From Actinomycetota bacterium (GTDB lineage: Bacteria > Actinomycetota > Thermoleophilia > BMS3ABIN01), in the NCBI GenBank assembly GCA_023382335.1, contig JAMCPM010000010.1, positions 1 through 64,000 on the forward strand: a DNA stretch of 64,000 nucleotides, read 5' to 3'. The position numbers were made by a program, and so were the translations under genes. Positions 6,861 through 28,608 of the stretch are shown one piece after another. The notes below the pieces were generated by a model that saw nothing but the letters and a program-made list of their open reading frames with translations, made no database searches and was not told the origin of the DNA. Positions within the stretch are counted from its first letter, which is position 1; each line of letters starts with the position of its first letter.

Positions 6861-8375
6861 CTAGGGATACGTGTACAACAAGCCTCCTCCGCAGGCATCC
6901 TCAGCTGTACCCGAATTGCTGGTGCTGAATGAGGAGACGTTAGCCGGCACCGTGTATTTGAGCACATACAAAGCTGATGAGCCGCCGCCGGCTATATCGC
7001 CCAGGCTAACAGGCAACTGCCCCATTTCGGGCATTACTCCATTGGACGCCTGAGAGTCGATGATCATAACATTATATGCCGTTACAAGCCCCAGATTGTT
7101 TACGCTGTAAGCCACACTTAGGCTTCGCGCCACATAGTTGGCGTAACTTCCCCAATAAACGTTTTGCCTGCTAAGCGTGAGGATAGGCCGTAACGGCGGC
7201 ACATTGATAGATCTGTTGGCTTCCAGGCCGATACCCGACACCGAATATGTCCAGTCACCCGCACATTGAGCCCGCACGCTCCAGGAGGTGAGGCCCGTTT
7301 CCCCGGGGGCGATGCTGGGTATCGTATGCGTCGCGACTTCGCCAGGCGGAAGTTCGAGGCCGGCAGGAAGCGTCAGCGTCAACGGTACATCGGTCATGGC
7401 AGTATCGGTATTATTAGCCACGTAAGCTGTAACCGTGAACGGGTTGGGCGACCAATCGCTACCAGCGTTTGTCAGATTCACGGGTCCAGTGATGCTAAGA
7501 GCCGCCGTCCCGCTGACCGTGCCGAGTCCGTAATATGTCAACAAGTCACGTGTCCCCCCGGGCGCAAGCGAAACAGGGTTCCACCACACGGTCGCCGCGC
7601 TGTCACCAGTAACCGGGTTTCCGGGAGTTACAGTATAGTCCCAACTTGTGCCCACTATACCCGGCCAAGTTGTAAGGGCAAACCGGTCAGGGGTAGTGGC
7701 CCCTCCGCCTCTGAGCGTGCCCTGAGCCACTATGTCGGGATTGGAAAGGTCATAGAATGCCTGCCAGTAATCCGGGATAGCGATTCCCGTGAAGTCCATT
7801 TCCGTGGTCACGTCTCCGACGCCGGGAACGCGGAAAGGCGCGCCGTCATTATTATTCAACATCGTATCGACCATCACGCGGACCCCAACATCGTGCGGCA
7901 CGGCGTCAAGATTGCTGACGGTGTATTTGTACATGCCCGTGTCCGGCCTGCCGGTGGAAGTTCCGTTAACTATCTGCAGAGTCTGCGTGACCCTCACACC
8001 CGCGCACTCCGCGACGGATTCGTTGACCAGGTCAGGCATATCGGTAGGAGGCTGAACCAGCGGGCATCCGTCTCCGTTTCCATAAATGTAATCAGCACCA
8101 TCAACCCTGACGGTTGTAAATGAGGTCCCTGGGCTATTAGGCCAGGCGTAGCTGATATTAAAGCTGCTGCCGGCAATTATGCCGGTTGCGCCGCTGTTGA
8201 ATCTGCCATCGGATCCCACCTGGATGGCCAGATAATCATTACTTGGATCGGCCGCCACCTGCGATCCTGCTGGCGGCGTCTTGGCAGCCAACGCGGTAAC
8301 ACCTCCAGCCATTAACATGCTGGTAACAATTGCAGCAAGCAACAATAACATTCTGGTACAAAGTCGACCTTTCAT
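6861..8375 (-). CDS. Secreted surface protein with CARDB/DUF11-like domain
   Basis: 504 residues when started at the ATG at 8375, which has GGGGAG eight bases upstream; a longer in-frame start 39 bases earlier lacks one. An N-terminal signal peptide (KGRLCTRMLLLLAAIV...ALAAK) exports the protein. Residues about 45-290 are rich in beta-strand, Gly, Thr and Pro and match nothing I can name; residues about 300-385 look like an immunoglobulin-like CARDB/DUF11 module (LTNAGSDW, TLPAGLELPPGE, IPSIAPGETG). A further beta-rich segment ends the protein. No sortase motif, S-layer domain or C-terminal membrane anchor is visible. Probably an extracellular adhesion or structural protein. The small Cys peptide follows on the same strand and may be co-transcribed. 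Confidence 0.7.
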   Translation of the reverse strand: MKGRLCTRMLLLLAAIVTSMLMAGGVTALAAKTPPAGSQVAADPSNDYLAIQVGSDGRFNSGATGIIAGSSFNISYAWPNSPGTSFTTVRVDGADYIYGNGDGCPLVQPPTDMPDLVNESVAECAGVRVTQTLQIVNGTSTGRPDTGMYKYTVSNLDAVPHDVGVRVMVDTMLNNNDGAPFRVPGVGDVTTEMDFTGIAIPDYWQAFYDLSNPDIVAQGTLRGGGATTPDRFALTTWPGIVGTSWDYTVTPGNPVTGDSAATVWWNPVSLAPGGTRDLLTYYGLGTVSGTAALSITGPVNLTNAGSDWSPNPFTVTAYVANNTDTAMTDVPLTLTLPAGLELPPGEVATHTIPSIAPGETGLTSWSVRAQCAGDWTYSVSGIGLEANRSINVPPLRPILTLSRQNVYWGSYANYVARSLSVAYSVNNLGLVTAYNVMIIDSQASNGVMPEMGQLPVSLGDIAGGGSSALYVLKYTVPANVSSFSTSNSGTAEDACGGGLLYTYP

Positions 8376-8914
8376 TTTGATCTCCCCTCTTTCGCGTGCA
8401 TTACCTGAATGCAAATTTTGATAATAAAAAAGCGGGTTCCCCTTACTTCAATTTCATTGGCTACCGAAGTGTAACAATCATTTCCAATTAGCATCGCTCA
8501 CCCTTCTTGCTAAGTACATCCACTTTATATTTCTGAATGTCACCTTGTCAGAAACAGACGAGAGTCCTTACAAAAAAGCAGCCGCGAAATACTACGCCTT
8601 TCTTTGTTTCTCCCTCCTTTTTTAAAAGAAGTTAATAATACTGATGTTATGTAAAATGTCAATTGAAAATGTTGACTATCAGACATAGTTATATATAATA
8701 ATTATGGTCTTATATCAGATGTAACAAAGCAATCTCTTCCCGGACAGTAGCCCCGCGTTGTTTAAGGCGTTATTTCATGCCGACGGATTCAACTTCAGAG
8801 CACTATGCTAATAAGGACGGTAATCTTCTGAAGGGCAGTATTCAAACGAATTCCCGAGTGCTTAACGTGCGGCGAAGAGAATCGACTTCGAAAGCCTGAA
8901 ATAATATAAAGCCA
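8376..8914. other. AT-rich divergent intergenic region
   Basis: About 540 bases between the minus-strand surface-protein gene and a plus-strand lipoprotein. Clearly more AT-rich than its surroundings at 8600-8720. It holds a good plus-strand promoter (separate entry) whose start lies about 210 bases before the lipoprotein ATG. A 40-codon frame at 8777-8899 has no ribosome binding site and I do not call it. Confidence 0.5.
8672..8699 (+). promoter_or_regulatory. Sigma-70-type promoter
   Basis: TTGACT (8672-8677), 16 bp spacer, TATAAT (8694-8699). The nearest downstream gene starts at 8915, so there is a 5' leader of about 210 bases or an unrecognised small RNA. Confidence 0.55.
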
Positions 8915-19805: not shown

Positions 19806-20289
19806 CTGGGTGATGATCACCGCGCTGGCGACGCTGCTAAACGGCCTCGCCCTTTTAGTCAGCGCCCTGCTGATCCTCAGGCAGCTGCGCCAGGAGGACC
19901 GGCAGCAGTTCGTCAGCGCCACGGCCGGTATGTTCAGGACGTGGATGGACGATGATTTCCAGAAGGCGGTGCAATGGGTGCTCTACGGCCTGCAGGAACA
20001 GACGTGGAACGACTTTGTCAGCGCCCACCGTAACGATTACGGCGAGCGCGCGTTCGCGCAGGTGGGCGCATACTTCAACCGCATCGGCTACATGGTCACG
20101 CACCATCTGATCGGCAGCGAGGACGAGCTGCTGCTCGATATCGTCGCCGGCAGCGCCATCTCCGTCTGGCAGAAGATCGAGCCTCTGGTGCTGGAGGCCC
20201 GCCTGACCGAGAACACGATGATGTTTAACGATTTCCAGGCGATGCTGCCGGAATGCTTTGAGTGCTATGTCCCCGAGCCGAGGCAGTAA
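19795..20289 (+). CDS. DUF4760-like membrane-anchored protein (intact copy)
   Basis: 164 residues. One N-terminal membrane helix (about residues 5-28, ITALATLLNGLALLVSALLIL) followed by a soluble helical domain: MFRTWMDDDFQKAVQWVLYGL, AQVGAYFNRIGYMVTHHLI, LLLDIVAGSAISVWQKIEPL. This resembles the DUF4760 group, whose function is unknown. Residues from about 52 on are encoded inside the first copy of a 783-bp tandem duplication, so a second, headless copy lies downstream. The start overlaps the tail of the rhodanese-like frame by 11 bases. Confidence 0.65.
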   Translation: MDINWVMITALATLLNGLALLVSALLILRQLRQEDRQQFVSATAGMFRTWMDDDFQKAVQWVLYGLQEQTWNDFVSAHRNDYGERAFAQVGAYFNRIGYMVTHHLIGSEDELLLDIVAGSAISVWQKIEPLVLEARLTENTMMFNDFQAMLPECFECYVPEPRQ

Positions 20290-20729
20290 TATCTGTTCGC
20301 CTGGTACATGAACTCGGCGCCGTCGGCGCGGCCGAGCCGATGGTGAGGGTCGAGCACCCGAACGTCGATTCCGTCGCCGCGGCGCTGACGGATTAGCTAA
20401 CAAACTGTCAAAACGTCAACCGGATATCAGATCGATGGACATGCGGATGGCGGTGGCGGCGATGAGCGCGGCCAGCGCCCAGCGCAGCACCAGCCGGCCG
20501 GTGCGTACCGAGAACCTGCCACCGAGCTGGGCGCCGATCAGGGCGCCGCTAACACAAAAAAGAGCTAGCGTAAAATCAATCTGGCCGGTCGCCAGCTTGC
20601 CGATCGAGCCGGCCAGGGCGGAGATAAAGACCACGCCGAGGGAGCTGCCTATGGTCGTGCGCGTGGGAATCCTGATCACATAAAGCATCGCCGGTATGAC
20701 GATGAAAGCTCCCGACTGCCCGACCATGC
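19947..20729. repeat. 783-bp tandem duplication, copy 1
   Basis: Bases 19947-20729 recur as 20730-21512 with no difference that I can find by eye. The unit begins inside the DUF4760-like gene and ends inside the convergent TauE/SafE-like gene. No terminal inverted repeats, target duplication or more than a base or two of junction homology are visible. Confidence 0.93.
20416..20729 (-). pseudogene. 3' fragment of the TauE/SafE-like gene (duplicated)
   Basis: Minus-strand sequence identical to the last 104 codons of the gene at 21199-21639, from MVGQSGAFIVIPAML to the stop. It is cut at the duplication junction and joined to the reverse complement of the DUF4760-like fragment, so it lacks its own start region. 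Expression as a protein is unlikely. Confidence 0.85.
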
Positions 20730-21072
20730 GGACGATGATTTCCAGAAGGCGGTGCAATGGGTGCTCTACGGCCTGCAGGAACAGACGTGGAACGACTTTG
20801 TCAGCGCCCACCGTAACGATTACGGCGAGCGCGCGTTCGCGCAGGTGGGCGCATACTTCAACCGCATCGGCTACATGGTCACGCACCATCTGATCGGCAG
20901 CGAGGACGAGCTGCTGCTCGATATCGTCGCCGGCAGCGCCATCTCCGTCTGGCAGAAGATCGAGCCTCTGGTGCTGGAGGCCCGCCTGACCGAGAACACG
21001 ATGATGTTTAACGATTTCCAGGCGATGCTGCCGGAATGCTTTGAGTGCTATGTCCCCGAGCCGAGGCAGTAA
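20730..21072 (+). pseudogene. 3' fragment of the DUF4760-like gene (duplicated)
   Basis: Plus-strand sequence identical to the last 114 codons of the gene at 19795-20289. The first usable codon is an ATG or similar start near 20752 (MQWVLYGLQEQ in that reading), giving about 106 residues without the membrane anchor. It has no ribosome binding site of its own and is best read as a by-product of the duplication. Confidence 0.85.
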
Positions 21073-24502: not shown

Positions 24503-24624
24503 ACCTTTTATGGTATTTGGGTCATAATTGAGCCGCGAATGCGGCCCCGGATCAGGTTTCCCCCAGAGCTTTCCGGGAAAGAACAACCGCATCCGATGCT
24601 GTAAATTTCGTGACTGGGGGCTCG

Positions 24625-26286
24625 ATGCGGAACCTGCTTATCTCGCTTCAGGACAACGTCGATGTGATCGGCCTGAAATCGCTGCACTATACCTTGCTGG
24701 AAAAAGGTCACGATTCCACGCTTCTGTTCATTCCCGGCTTCAACCTCGACGACGGCGCCACCCTTGGCTGTTTTGACGATTTCGTCGAGGATATCGATCC
24801 CGACCTGATCGGCTTCAGCCTCATGAGCGGCGAGTACAACCGCACTCGCGAGCTCACCGCCCATCTGAAGACAAAGACCGGCAAGCCGGTGGTCTGGGGC
24901 GGGATCCACCCGACCATCGCCCCGGAGGCCAGCCTCGAATTTGCCGACTACGTCTGCCTGGGGGAAGGCGAGCGCGCAATCGTGGAGATCGCCGATGCGG
25001 TCGATTCCGGCAGGGACCTAAGGACGGTCGGAAGCCTCGGCTATTTCGACGACGGCGCCCTGAAGACCAACGAGATGCATCCCGTCATCGCCGACCTCGA
25101 CAGCCTGCCCCACTACGAGCATGTGCCTGCCGGCAGCTTTGTCATCGACAAGGGCCGGCTGGCGCCGGTGGACTGGGGCGTCATCGCCCGGCACACCAGG
25201 TACAAGGGCAAGACCTACAGCGTCATCAGCTCCCGCGGCTGCCCGTTTTCCTGCACCTACTGCTGCAACAATTTTCTTTCAAGGCTTTACGAATCCAAGA
25301 AGATCAGGCGCCGCAGCGCCGAGCATGTCATCTCCGAGATAGAGAAGGCGGTCGCCTTGCACCCGGAGATCGAGTACATCAACTTCCATGACGACTGTTT
25401 CCTGGCCTGCAGCACCAGCTACCTCGACGATTTCTGCCAGGCTTACCGCGAGCGCGTCGGCAAGCCTTTCATCGCCAGAAGCATCCCCGTCTATATCAAC
25501 CGCGACAAGATGAAGATCCTCAAGCAAAGCGGGCTGAGCTGGATCAGCCTCGGCCTGCAGAGCGGCAGCGACCGCGTGAACCGGGAGGTCTATCAGCGAA
25601 AGTCTCTGCGCAAGGATTTTCTCCAGGCCGCTGAAGTGGTCAAGGAATTTGACATAGCTGCTTTTTATGATGTAATCCTCGACAATCCTTTTGAGACCGA
25701 GGCCGAGACCCTGGAGACGGTTGAGACGCTGATGGAGGTGCCCAAGCCCTTCTATCCGGAGATTTTTTCCCTCAGCTTTTATTACGGCACGGATCTCTTC
25801 GAGCGCGCCCGGCAGGAATGCCCCGAGACCATCGAGGACACGCACAGCAAGGATTACCTGGTCTACAGGAAGAGCGCCATCAACAGGCTGGTGCGGCTGG
25901 CGGTATTCAAGCGCAAGCCCGGCATGCAGCGCCTGCTGCGGCTCTACCGGCGCGGGCCTGACAGCCTGCGCTTCCGGCTGGCGCTGTTTCTTGCCGGCCT
26001 GTGGTCATCCATTTTTATCGAGCCGCTGACGTACTTCAGGGTCATCAGGCTTTCGCAGGGCAAATCCCTCTGGAAAACATTAAAAGTGCTGCCTTCCTAT
26101 TTCCGCAAGGGCTTTGAGATTTACCTGAAGCAATTCAGGAAGGCCGGCTCGCACCTGCCGCTGATTTTGGTTCTGCCGTTTTGTTTGCAAGCCTGTGCAT
26201 CATTAGCTAGCCTAGACATAGACGGTCTGGAATTCGAAGGCCTAATAAATATCGATTGGAGTATATATGTCTCTAGTTTTGGATAA
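24625..26286 (+). CDS. B12-binding-domain radical SAM protein
   Basis: 553 residues from ATG 24625. N-terminal cobalamin-binding-like Rossmann domain (about 1-135: LLISLQDNVDVIGLKSLHYTL, LIGFSLMSGEY, VVWGGIHPTIAPE, YVCLGEGE) followed by the radical SAM core with SSRGCPFSCTYCCNNF (cluster ligands in CxxxCxxC). The DxHxxG motif that supplies the cobalt lower ligand is not present, as in many base-off members. The C-terminal 130 residues are basic with a hydrophobic stretch (LPLILVLPFCLQACAS). Relatives act in lipid, hopanoid or natural-product modification; substrate unknown. The gene overlaps the next by 20 bases. Confidence 0.82.
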   Translation: MRNLLISLQDNVDVIGLKSLHYTLLEKGHDSTLLFIPGFNLDDGATLGCFDDFVEDIDPDLIGFSLMSGEYNRTRELTAHLKTKTGKPVVWGGIHPTIAPEASLEFADYVCLGEGERAIVEIADAVDSGRDLRTVGSLGYFDDGALKTNEMHPVIADLDSLPHYEHVPAGSFVIDKGRLAPVDWGVIARHTRYKGKTYSVISSRGCPFSCTYCCNNFLSRLYESKKIRRRSAEHVISEIEKAVALHPEIEYINFHDDCFLACSTSYLDDFCQAYRERVGKPFIARSIPVYINRDKMKILKQSGLSWISLGLQSGSDRVNREVYQRKSLRKDFLQAAEVVKEFDIAAFYDVILDNPFETEAETLETVETLMEVPKPFYPEIFSLSFYYGTDLFERARQECPETIEDTHSKDYLVYRKSAINRLVRLAVFKRKPGMQRLLRLYRRGPDSLRFRLALFLAGLWSSIFIEPLTYFRVIRLSQGKSLWKTLKVLPSYFRKGFEIYLKQFRKAGSHLPLILVLPFCLQACASLASLDIDGLEFEGLINIDWSIYVSSFG

Positions 26287-26659
26287 GGCGCAGGAACTTG
26301 CAGCGGCCATTTCTGACAGCGAGGAGCTTGGTCAGCTGAAGCAGGCGGCCGAACGCGTCGACGGCGACGAAGCGGCGACGGATGCGCTCAAGAAGTTCTC
26401 CGAAAAGCAGGAGATGGTGCAGCGCGCCGCCAGTTCCGGCCTGCAGCTGCCTCCCGAGCAGATGGAAGAGCTTCAGGAGATGCAGGGTCAGATCCGCGAC
26501 ATTCCCAGTATTCAGGATTTCGCGTCTGCCCAGACCAGCTTCAACCAACTGATGGACCAGGTCAACGACATCATCTCGGCGGCGGTCATGGGCCGTGAGC
26601 CGGGCGAGGTCCCCGAAGGCCACGAGCACGGCTCCAGCTGCGGATGCGGCGGCCACTAG
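26267..26659 (+). CDS. YlbF/YmcA-like protein
   Basis: 130 residues, GGAG before ATG. Helical YlbF/YmcA (com_ylbF) family: LDKAQELAAAISDSEELGQLKQAAERVDGDEAATDALKKF, then QMEELQEMQGQIRDIPSIQDF and FNQLMDQVNDIISAAV. In Bacillus related proteins regulate RNA maturation and competence through RNase Y. The C-terminal tail HEHGSSCGCGGH is His/Cys-rich and could bind metal or an FeS cluster. It overlaps the radical SAM gene upstream and is followed by a ferredoxin gene, suggesting a small operon. Confidence 0.82.
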   Translation: MSLVLDKAQELAAAISDSEELGQLKQAAERVDGDEAATDALKKFSEKQEMVQRAASSGLQLPPEQMEELQEMQGQIRDIPSIQDFASAQTSFNQLMDQVNDIISAAVMGREPGEVPEGHEHGSSCGCGGH

Positions 26660-26748: not shown

Positions 26749-26940
26749 TTGGCTGAAAAACCCAAGATCGATCCCGAAGAGTGTACGGGATGCGGCATCT
26801 GCGTGGATGAATGTCCCAACGAGAGTCTCGAACTAGATTCCGAGGACGTGGCCAGCCTGGCGAATCCAACCGCCTGCGATGGCTGCGCGACCTGCGAGGA
26901 ATCCTGTCCGACCGAAGCCATAACGATGGAAGGGGCCTAG
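26749..26940 (+). CDS. 2[4Fe-4S] ferredoxin
   Basis: 63 residues from TTG 26749, with GGGTGG upstream. Two cluster motifs: CTGCGICVDECP and CDGCATCEESCP, the classical clostridial-type bicluster ferredoxin arrangement. It is a low-potential electron carrier in the cytoplasm and would suit reduction of the radical SAM enzymes encoded on both sides. A perfect palindromic terminator follows 65 bp later. Confidence 0.92.
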   Translation: MAEKPKIDPEECTGCGICVDECPNESLELDSEDVASLANPTACDGCATCEESCPTEAITMEGA

Positions 26941-27005
26941 GCCCGCTTACCCTGGCGGGATCGACGGCATCTCACCATCGAGACCCTGTTTACTCGCAAA
27001 TAATA

Positions 27006-27037
27006 TGAAAAACTCCTCCGGCCGGAGGAGTTTTTCA
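27006..27037. terminator. Bidirectional terminator (32-bp perfect palindrome)
   Basis: TGAAAAACTCCTCCGG is followed at once by its reverse complement. With A-runs on the left arm and T-runs on the right it serves both the ferredoxin (plus) and the RiPP-like operon (minus), whose last codon is 22 bases away. Confidence 0.9.
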
Positions 27038-27058
27038 TTTACGGCTTATCGCCGGCAA

Positions 27059-27160
27059 TCAGCATGAAGAGCTGCATTTGCAGGTGCTGGAGCTGCTCTT
27101 CCTCGACTTTCTGATTTTCACCGACGCCACCTCCTCGAAATCTCGGCCTGTCTGGATCAT
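27059..27160 (-). CDS. Putative Cys/Ser-rich RiPP precursor peptide
   Basis: 33 codons from ATG 27160 to TGA 27059, or 20 codons from an in-frame GTG at 27121 that has GAGGAGG seven bases upstream. The long form begins MIQTGRDFEEVAS, then a basic stretch KIRKSRK, and ends in SSSSTCKCSSSC. The gene starts 9 bases after the stop of the radical SAM/SPASM gene and ends 22 bases before a strong terminator, so it is the last gene of that operon. Short precursor, charged leader, Ser/Cys-rich C-terminal core and position next to a peptide-type radical SAM enzyme together suggest a thioether (sactionine-like) or similar RiPP. No homologue is known to me; the function is inference. Confidence 0.6.
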   Translation of the reverse strand: MIQTGRDFEEVASVKIRKSRKSSSSTCKCSSSC

Positions 27161-27169
27161 GAAGCTTTT

Positions 27170-28375
27170 CTAAAGCGCCCCGTAGCGGTAACACGGGCAT
27201 AGGTCGGCGCCCGTGGCGCTATTATACCCAGCCGCGCGAAATCTGCACCCGCCGCGGCAATCCTCGATGAAGTCACAGTCGCAATCGAGCTCCGACAGAC
27301 GTATCTTCCTTATTTTTTGCCAGCAGGCAGCCAATCCTTCAGAGACCGCGCCCACCGGCTGATCGGCATAAAAGCCGCAGCGGGCGGCATCGCCGCCGGC
27401 CATGACCGCCATCAGATGGGCGCCGCAGGCGTAACCGGCGGCCGGTTCGTGGATAGCCCCGCCAAAGGAACGGTCTATATAGGGACCGGCGGTGCGGGCG
27501 TCGACCATCAGTTCCGAAGCGGCGGTGAGCCGGCCGCTGGAGGAGGGCAGGTCGATCTCCCACTTCTCCACTCCCAGTTTCGCGATCAGGGCTTCCATGC
27601 GGTCGAAATCTCCCAGGTTGCGATCGTGGACCATAGTTGCCACGGAGACCTGCTTGCCGGCGGCGGTCAGCTTTCCGATCGCCGCGAGCGATCGCTCGAA
27701 GCTGCCGGCGCCACGGATGAAATCATGTGCCGCCCGCATGCCGTCGAGGCTGATCTGGACTTCCTGGAAAGAGAGCCTGCCTGCCGCCTCGTCATCGATC
27801 AGGGTGCCGTTGGAGAGCAGCACCGACCGCAGGTCCCTGCCGGCCAGGCTGTCGTTGAGCTCCCAGAATCCACGATGCAGAAGGGGCTCGCCACCGGAGA
27901 TCAGAAGCCTTAGCCCCTGCATGGATTCGAACTCATCGACCACCGCGGCGATCTCTTCCAGGGGCAGGTCGCGGCTGCCCGGCTCACCGATAAAGCAGTG
28001 CCGGCAGCGCAGGTTGCAGCGGTCGGTGATGTGCAGCAGAAGGTAGCGCAGGGAAGGCAGGGGGCTTTGTGCCAGGTGCAGCGGCCTTTCGGCAGGCGCC
28101 GCGGCTTTCTCGAGGATGCCTTCCTCGAGGCAGAATTCGATGAAGGCGGCGGTATCCCCGGCAGTGTCCGGGGCGGTATCCCGGGCCGGGCCGTCTGTTC
28201 CGCTCGAGGCCTCCGGGAACGGCGCCCCCGATCCGCATGCCGCCAGAAACCCGACCCCCTCGGGATTCAGGACATAAAGCTCGTCGGTGGCGCGGTTATA
28301 GAGGCAGGGCTCTTCGAGCAGCTTCGGCGAGCAGTCAGGAGTCAGGCGCAGGATGTCGCCGGCAACGCCGCTCAT
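27170..28375 (-). CDS. Radical SAM/SPASM peptide maturase with PqqD-like N-terminus
   Basis: 401 residues; AAGGA before ATG, two bases after the upstream stop. Residues about 10-95 resemble a PqqD-like peptide-recognition domain (PKLLEEPCLYNRATDELYVLNPEGVGFLAA ... FCLEEGILE). The radical SAM core has C120, C124, C127 (CNLRCRHC) and GGEP at 161-164. The C-terminal SPASM region has C317, C333, C365, C367, C373, C377, C393 and C395, enough for two auxiliary clusters, including the CDFIEDCRGGC pattern. This architecture belongs to enzymes that modify ribosomal peptides (sactisynthase/PqqE-like). The linker at 50-72 is Ser/Asp/Gly-rich. The likely substrate is the Cys-rich peptide encoded just downstream. 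Confidence 0.85.
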   Translation of the reverse strand: MSGVAGDILRLTPDCSPKLLEEPCLYNRATDELYVLNPEGVGFLAACGSGAPFPEASSGTDGPARDTAPDTAGDTAAFIEFCLEEGILEKAAAPAERPLHLAQSPLPSLRYLLLHITDRCNLRCRHCFIGEPGSRDLPLEEIAAVVDEFESMQGLRLLISGGEPLLHRGFWELNDSLAGRDLRSVLLSNGTLIDDEAAGRLSFQEVQISLDGMRAAHDFIRGAGSFERSLAAIGKLTAAGKQVSVATMVHDRNLGDFDRMEALIAKLGVEKWEIDLPSSSGRLTAASELMVDARTAGPYIDRSFGGAIHEPAAGYACGAHLMAVMAGGDAARCGFYADQPVGAVSEGLAACWQKIRKIRLSELDCDCDFIEDCRGGCRFRAAGYNSATGADLCPCYRYGAL

Positions 28376-28377
28376 CG

Positions 28378-28608
28378 CTATTCCTTTTTAAGCGCCTCGG
28401 CAAGTCCGGTGGGAGTGAGCACACCGCGTACGATGATCTCGCGCAATATCTGGAAACAGGAACATTCCAGGTCGTCCTCGTGCCCTTCGTGGAAGAAATC
28501 GCAGTCGGCGCAGAGCAGGCTTCTGAGCTCCGCCAGGGAGAGGTCCCGGCGCGAGCCGAACTCGGCCCCGGCCGCCGCGAGATTGGGGAATTCATGCTTT
28601 TCGCTCAT
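28378..28608 (-). CDS. Small Cys-containing protein, first gene of RiPP-like operon
   Basis: 76 residues from ATG 28608 (AAGGAGG five bases upstream); a longer frame exists but lacks a ribosome site. It has two cysteine pairs, LLCADCDFFHEGHEDD and LECSCFQIL, with several His and acidic residues between, then a helical tail (REIIVRGVLTPTGLAEALKKE). This looks like a small metal- or FeS-binding helical domain. It ends two bases before the radical SAM/SPASM start, so the products probably act together. It could be a partner protein or, less likely, a second precursor. Not a family that I recognise. Confidence 0.65.
   Translation of the reverse strand: MSEKHEFPNLAAAGAEFGSRRDLSLAELRSLLCADCDFFHEGHEDDLECSCFQILREIIVRGVLTPTGLAEALKKE

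Follow-up and report, generated by a model that had tools for sequence, protein, structure and literature searches.

The three-gene unit described here, located in a window of 64,000 nucleotides (the whole stretch of DNA that was analysed), is best read as a new radical-SAM RiPP family. Judged from comparison of loci across three classes of Actinomycetota, an RRE-fused radical SAM/SPASM enzyme, a tiny Cys peptide and, in most genomes, a small C-x-x-C...C protein are inherited together. That the enzyme is paired with this peptide and modifies it under the guidance of its RRE is, in our estimate, very likely; the chemistry and the role of the product are proposed below with less confidence.

Organization of the locus

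The unit and its elements, all on the minus strand, are as follows.

28378..28608 (-), partner protein gene, 76 aa, first in the unit (open reading frame and Shine-Dalgarno site in the sequence)
27170..28375 (-), putative radical SAM/SPASM peptide maturase, 401 aa (PF04055, E 5.9e-21; orthologues in 41 genomes; tree)
28103..28354 (-), predicted RRE (PqqD-like) domain, about residues 8-91 of the enzyme (domain model of the L030 orthologue; PqqD-family HMM matches)
27995..28018 (-), CxxxCxxC motif (C120, C124, C127) for the SAM-binding [4Fe-4S] cluster (invariant in 29 orthologues)
27191..27427 (-), SPASM region C317...C333...C365-x-C367-x5-C373-x3-C377...C395 (sequence and alignment)
27128..27135 (-), Shine-Dalgarno sequence AGGAGGTG of the peptide gene (sequence; a purine-rich ribosome site lies at the same place in orthologues)
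27059..27121 (-), precursor peptide MKIRKSRKSSSSTCKCSSSC, 20 codons, GTG start (Shine-Dalgarno position and comparison with orthologues)
27005..27038 (-), perfect 34-nt palindrome after the peptide gene, predicted bidirectional intrinsic terminator (sequence)

Only 2 nt (CG) separate the 76-aa gene from the enzyme gene, and 9 nt past the enzyme stop lies the ATG of a 33-codon frame ending at 27059. The preliminary description of this DNA had reported three minus-strand genes with spacings of 2 and 9 nt (the latter counted to that ATG) and a perfect palindrome, all of which were found in the sequence. The palindrome folds into a hairpin with z = -4.7, and a similar hairpin follows the peptide gene in most orthologous loci of the same family (f1). 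Since it also faces a convergent ferredoxin gene, it can end transcription both ways.

A radical SAM/SPASM enzyme with a predicted RRE

The 401-aa enzyme contains C120/C124/C127 and a GGE motif, and the CxxxCxxC signature together with a significant PF04055 match was present in 29/29 orthologues. As SPASM signature we used seven cysteines in the arrangement Cx9-15Gx4C ... Cx2Cx5Cx3C ... C. The window enzyme has all seven, with CxC instead of CxxC in the second motif, and SPASM cysteines occur in all 29 aligned orthologues. The CxC form is found in f1, f5, f32, f47 and f59, the canonical CxxC in f3, f26 and f40. Both the C120/C124/C127 motif and the Cys-rich SPASM tail noted earlier are thus borne out. 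In one orthologue (L038, G006:C9, enzyme at 7580-8827), a low-complexity insertion of about 21 residues precedes the SPASM domain and had split the first search match into two.

Among Pfam models, Radical_SAM was the only significant match to the enzyme, and the SPASM models of NCBIfam matched the radical SAM core alone, far under their cut-offs. The closest solved structures by sequence are peptide maturases, including PqqE and 5wgg/5why, the nearest being the sactipeptide maturase SkfB (E 2.3e-25). TIGR03962, the mycofactocin maturase MftC, scored 100.5 bits against a cut-off of 265 and covered the rSAM domain only, while AhbD (TIGR04545) reached 92.5 of 500 bits and NirJ (TIGR04051) 87.9 of 515 bits. 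Grouping with a non-peptide SPASM family, named in the preliminary description as the outcome that would speak against a peptide maturase, was therefore not observed, the enzyme staying far below the heme, NirJ and AhbD cut-offs.

The rSAM-domain HMM scores for NirJ, AhbC, AhbD and the mycofactocin enzyme are nevertheless similar to one another, which could indicate that the substrate lies elsewhere, e.g., a heme precursor as for NirJ and AhbD; the peptide would then be a co-inherited micropeptide with a metal-binding or regulatory role, and its CKCxxSC core could indeed bind metal unmodified. We consider this quite improbable, given scores so far under those of heme enzymes (about 92 vs 500 bits for AhbD), an N-terminal RRE fold of the kind typical of leader-binding enzymes and the strong co-occurrence of enzyme and peptide described below. 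As to a regulatory role, the peptide gene stands last or is divergently transcribed and is thus not an attenuator leader.

The PqqD-like start of the enzyme, proposed earlier, is supported by PqqD-type HMM matches in members of the family and by an RRE-like domain model, although the Pfam PqqD model (PF05402) misses the window enzyme and matched one family member at E 0.038, short of its gathering score. In diverse members, the N-terminal region of about 90 residues resembles PqqD according to NCBIfam TIGR03859 (best E 1.4e-4, in one member), with further matches to actinodefensin-associated PqqD-like protein B, ScmD and CcpM; PDB chains searched with the N-terminal profile gave no significant match by sequence. 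The domain was modelled on the L030 orthologue with moderate confidence (pLDDT 75) and compared with RRE structures, which are marked by a three-stranded beta sheet plus helices, the best matches being TigE (Z 9.3), TbiB1 with its leader (9.2) and lasso B1 (9.1), followed by the PbtF RRE (Z 7.5) and PqqD (Z 6.6). Most of the top structural matches are RREs from RiPP systems, with weak Foldseek E values (0.04 at best) and middling Z scores of which the aligner itself warns. From this modelling, the enzyme is predicted to carry an N-terminal, PqqD-like RRE. A full-length enzyme model, built with three sequences, was too poor for use (pLDDT 41).

A 20-residue peptide with a near-invariant core

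The short frame was originally taken as a 33-codon precursor starting with ATG, a proposal that did not hold: its 13 upstream codons lack conservation and contain a stop in some orthologues. The good ribosome site seen inside the frame is, however, real, as the strong Shine-Dalgarno sequence ends 6 nt before GTG 27121, and orthologue comparison places the conserved product, a 20-mer, from this GTG on. Across the family the precursor measures 20-22 aa.

All of the 26 distinct peptide sequences, to which MRITKVAKKASSTCKCAKSC and MIKKVSRRTGGTCKCSRSC were later added, share a basic N-terminal segment with the consensus (K/R)-I-x-K-(V/I/S/A) and the core C-K-C-x-x-S-C. A Thr precedes the core in 24/26 sequences, and a Gly follows it in the f26 and f40 members that were read, so that a near-invariant Thr, Lys or Ser stands directly before each core Cys. 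The core is near-invariant across the three classes and present in single copy; within f1, 9 of the last 10 codons show synonymous variation only or no change at all. That the short frame is a chance reading frame between the enzyme gene and the terminator, as its mere 20 codons and the lack of a family-model match might suggest, is contradicted by this invariance and codon pattern, by the ribosome site and by the different genomic placements of the peptide, which leaves this explanation a practically negligible probability.

Six representative peptides searched against Pfam and NCBIfam matched no family, apart from one sub-threshold thiopeptide match (E 0.021), and no description of this peptide was found in the literature searched, the coverage of which lacks many journals and all supplements. 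The earlier remark that no described family with this precursor was known agrees with both searches.

The small cysteine protein

The 76-aa protein contains C33-x-x-C36 and E-C49-S-C51-F, confirming the two Cys pairs noticed before. Its assignment as a partner has conserved linkage as its backing: homologues lie directly upstream of the enzyme in 33/37 loci. Of the remaining four, L035 has its contig cut inside the enzyme and L048 is masked upstream; for G086 and G080 no partner was found, and it is seemingly absent there. Invariant residues (C33, C36, F38, C49 and L55) surround an acidic stretch. Searches of Pfam, NCBIfam and PDB returned no matching family or structure for the protein, DUF6171 (PF19668) scoring 15.5 bits against a gathering score of 27 and matching only 2/25 members. 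The protein probably assists as a chaperone or as a donor of metal or electrons; it may plausibly hold a metal or cluster site or act as a chaperone of the peptide.

Co-occurrence of peptide and enzyme

Absence of the short frame from all homologous loci had been named as the result that would count against the peptide. Instead, the peptide was found in 39/41 enzyme-positive Actinomycetota genomes of three classes (class and phylum samples taken together), the exceptions being G690, where the enzyme lies at a contig end, and G080, a 74%-complete MAG. In a matched sample of 396 Actinomycetota genomes (29 enzyme-positive, 367 enzyme-negative), 28/29 enzyme-positive genomes contained the peptide: 22 by a DNA pattern, four read at the locus because codons or start fell outside that pattern, and two on other contigs (G530, G647). 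The pattern yielded no convincing copy in the 367 enzyme-negative genomes; it struck seven of them, four times out of frame, twice with a stop and once in frame (G676), there antisense within a dehydrogenase operon, and a control pattern run backward struck six genomes. Fisher's test gave p ~1e-37 (26/29 vs 0/367), a value that ignores relatedness and is indicative only.

Most genomes have the peptide no more than about 450 nt behind the enzyme. In f32 and f47 it stands upstream of the gene for the small Cys protein and is transcribed divergently, and in G589, G722, G005, G530 and G647 it is on a separate contig from the enzyme. These contigs may just be broken, while in G589 the neighbouring genes suggest a true relocation. 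Shifting placement of the peptide combined with a constant pairing to the enzyme appears to be the strongest sign of a functional link. By linkage and co-occurrence, the cassette would thus have the defining composition of a RiPP system, i.e., a ribosomal precursor linked to a modifying enzyme. The TCKC peptide of G589 (L252, G589:C53, 3754-6200), away from the contig of its own enzyme, directly follows a gene pair resembling a radical SAM protein and its partner.

Distribution and descent

Enzyme orthologues were found in 14/19 genomes of f1, the window's own family, in three more genomes of the same class and, beyond it, in two other Actinomycetota classes, where six families have the enzyme. 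The class holding f26, f32, f40, f47 and f54 has the enzyme in 22/31 genomes, and within f26 the cassette occurs in 14/15 sampled genomes. The sampling covers Actinomycetota, and a wider one-protein contig scan detects close relatives only. Among the viruses and plasmids searched, no enzyme orthologue appeared, only distant radical SAM enzymes. The families separate largely by taxonomy in a maximum-likelihood enzyme tree, which argues for old vertical inheritance. Judged from this tree and distribution, the cassette has long been conserved as a unit in several actinobacterial classes that are mostly uncultured.

Genomic neighbourhood

Within f1, the unit sits amid a ferredoxin/YlbF pair and a cytochrome-NrfD-molybdopterin cluster. 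G011 has the same flanks and lacks the cassette as a block, its ferredoxin and cytochrome genes being 378 nt apart vs 2.1 kb in the window, and G008, G015 and G017 have ABC-transporter genes beside that cytochrome instead. Because 17/19 f1 genomes have the NrfD gene, cassette-negative ones among them, the cassette does not obligatorily accompany this cluster. In other families the neighbours are unrelated (named by eye: dcw genes, dehydratase pairs, transaldolase, an alternative complex III-like operon). We therefore discarded the neighbours as a functional clue and inferred no client enzyme from them.

Some genes near the unit deserve mention in their own right. At 26267-26659 (+), a YlbF/YmcA-family protein with a Cys/His-rich tail (GSSCGCGGH) resembles halo-CC-star HcsL below the cut-off (70 vs 140 bits); it adjoins a two-cluster ferredoxin (26749-26940, +), and in f1 this pair is a conserved neighbour of the cassette that some genomes retain even where the cassette is missing. 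In the stretch that also holds the pair, a radical SAM protein with a B12-binding domain (24610-26286, +) has its best matches, below cut-off, among lipid-biosynthesis types. Further away, an exact tandem duplication at 19947-21029 (300-nt copies, 100% identical, 783 nt from start to start) interrupts a membrane-transporter-like gene (-); it either arose by recent duplication or reflects an assembly artefact.

In line with the earlier remark that no transporter or protease is adjacent, no exporter, transporter, immunity gene or protease is conserved near the unit among the loci of the families compared. This bears on the possibility that the product is a secreted antimicrobial or signalling sacti- or ranthipeptide, exported and trimmed by proteins encoded elsewhere, for which the small size and Cys-richness of the peptide and the relation of the enzyme to SkfB could speak. 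Likewise, the f26 peptides carry a Gly-Gly before the core that could serve as a C39-protease site; it is missing from those of f1, f32, f47 and f59. Antimicrobial cores usually diversify, whereas this one is near-invariant across classes, and single copy and vertical descent also argue against such a role, so that we regard it as unlikely.

Proposed function and relation to known systems

Our preferred reading remains a peptide that is modified by its RRE-bearing enzyme. Based on the known behaviour of these enzyme families, the N-terminal segment of the peptide would bind to the RRE by adding a beta strand to it. The [4Fe-4S] cluster, with SAM bound, would then generate a 5'-deoxyadenosyl radical, and the SPASM clusters would help to oxidise the peptide core. 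The small Cys protein would assist as chaperone, metal donor or electron donor. Since three invariant cysteines meet a SPASM enzyme, the core cysteines could be linked to nearby residues, most likely by one to three thioethers; by analogy, the case for thioether chemistry on the core is about evenly balanced.

SkfB, CteB/SCIFF, PapB and SuiB, which form thioethers at precursor Cys, are likewise radical SAM/SPASM enzymes with an RRE-type N-terminal region. Sactipeptide and ranthipeptide precursors exceed the present one (20-22 aa) in length and often have transporters or proteases linked to them, whereas the linked gene here codes for a small Cys protein. TigE (PDB 8vpo), the enzyme of a poly-cyclopropylglycine peptide and top structural match of the domain model, also bears an N-terminal RRE on a radical SAM/SPASM enzyme; its substrate repeats lack Cys and are converted to cyclopropylglycine. 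The Asp-Cys motif cassettes (clusters 59 and 115) are also very small radical-SAM cassettes with peptides that repeat a fixed residue directly before Cys, but these are Asp-Cys repeats accompanied by a recombinase or several rSAM enzymes, and the available portion of that source describes no TCKCxxSC core or CxxC partner (PMC9062424).

Mycofactocin (MftA/MftB/MftC) and PQQ (PqqA/PqqD/PqqE) share with the cassette a short, non-diversified peptide with a highly conserved C-terminus as well as a PqqD-type RRE and a radical SAM/SPASM enzyme. They differ in that the cassette has its RRE within the enzyme itself, a TCKCxxSC core in place of an aromatic or Glu-Tyr motif, and no linked dehydrogenase, glycosyltransferase or peptidase. 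Ribosomal peptides so conserved and accompanied by PqqD/SPASM enzymes became redox cofactors in these two systems. For mycofactocin, a cofactor-type product was argued from conservation in 2011 (PMC3023750), and by analogy this argument applies to the present cassette as well. An intracellular cofactor or metal ligand appears likelier than an antibiotic because the core is near-invariant and single-copy and has no linked exporter, immunity gene or protease; still, we hold a cofactor-like role at somewhat below even confidence. More tentative yet is the full picture, in which the RRE-fused enzyme and a dedicated Cys helper would make a widely conserved intracellular peptide cofactor or metal-binding ligand, unknown until now, with a thioether-modified TCKCxxSC core, used by one or more core enzymes of these bacteria.

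At 1.55 kb and with a 20-residue precursor, the whole three-gene unit ranks with the simplest radical-SAM peptide systems, and the family libraries searched do not contain it. The near-invariant core, together with the presence of the cassette in nearly all of f26 and in most of f1, suggests that its function in these actinobacteria is basic and not competitive.
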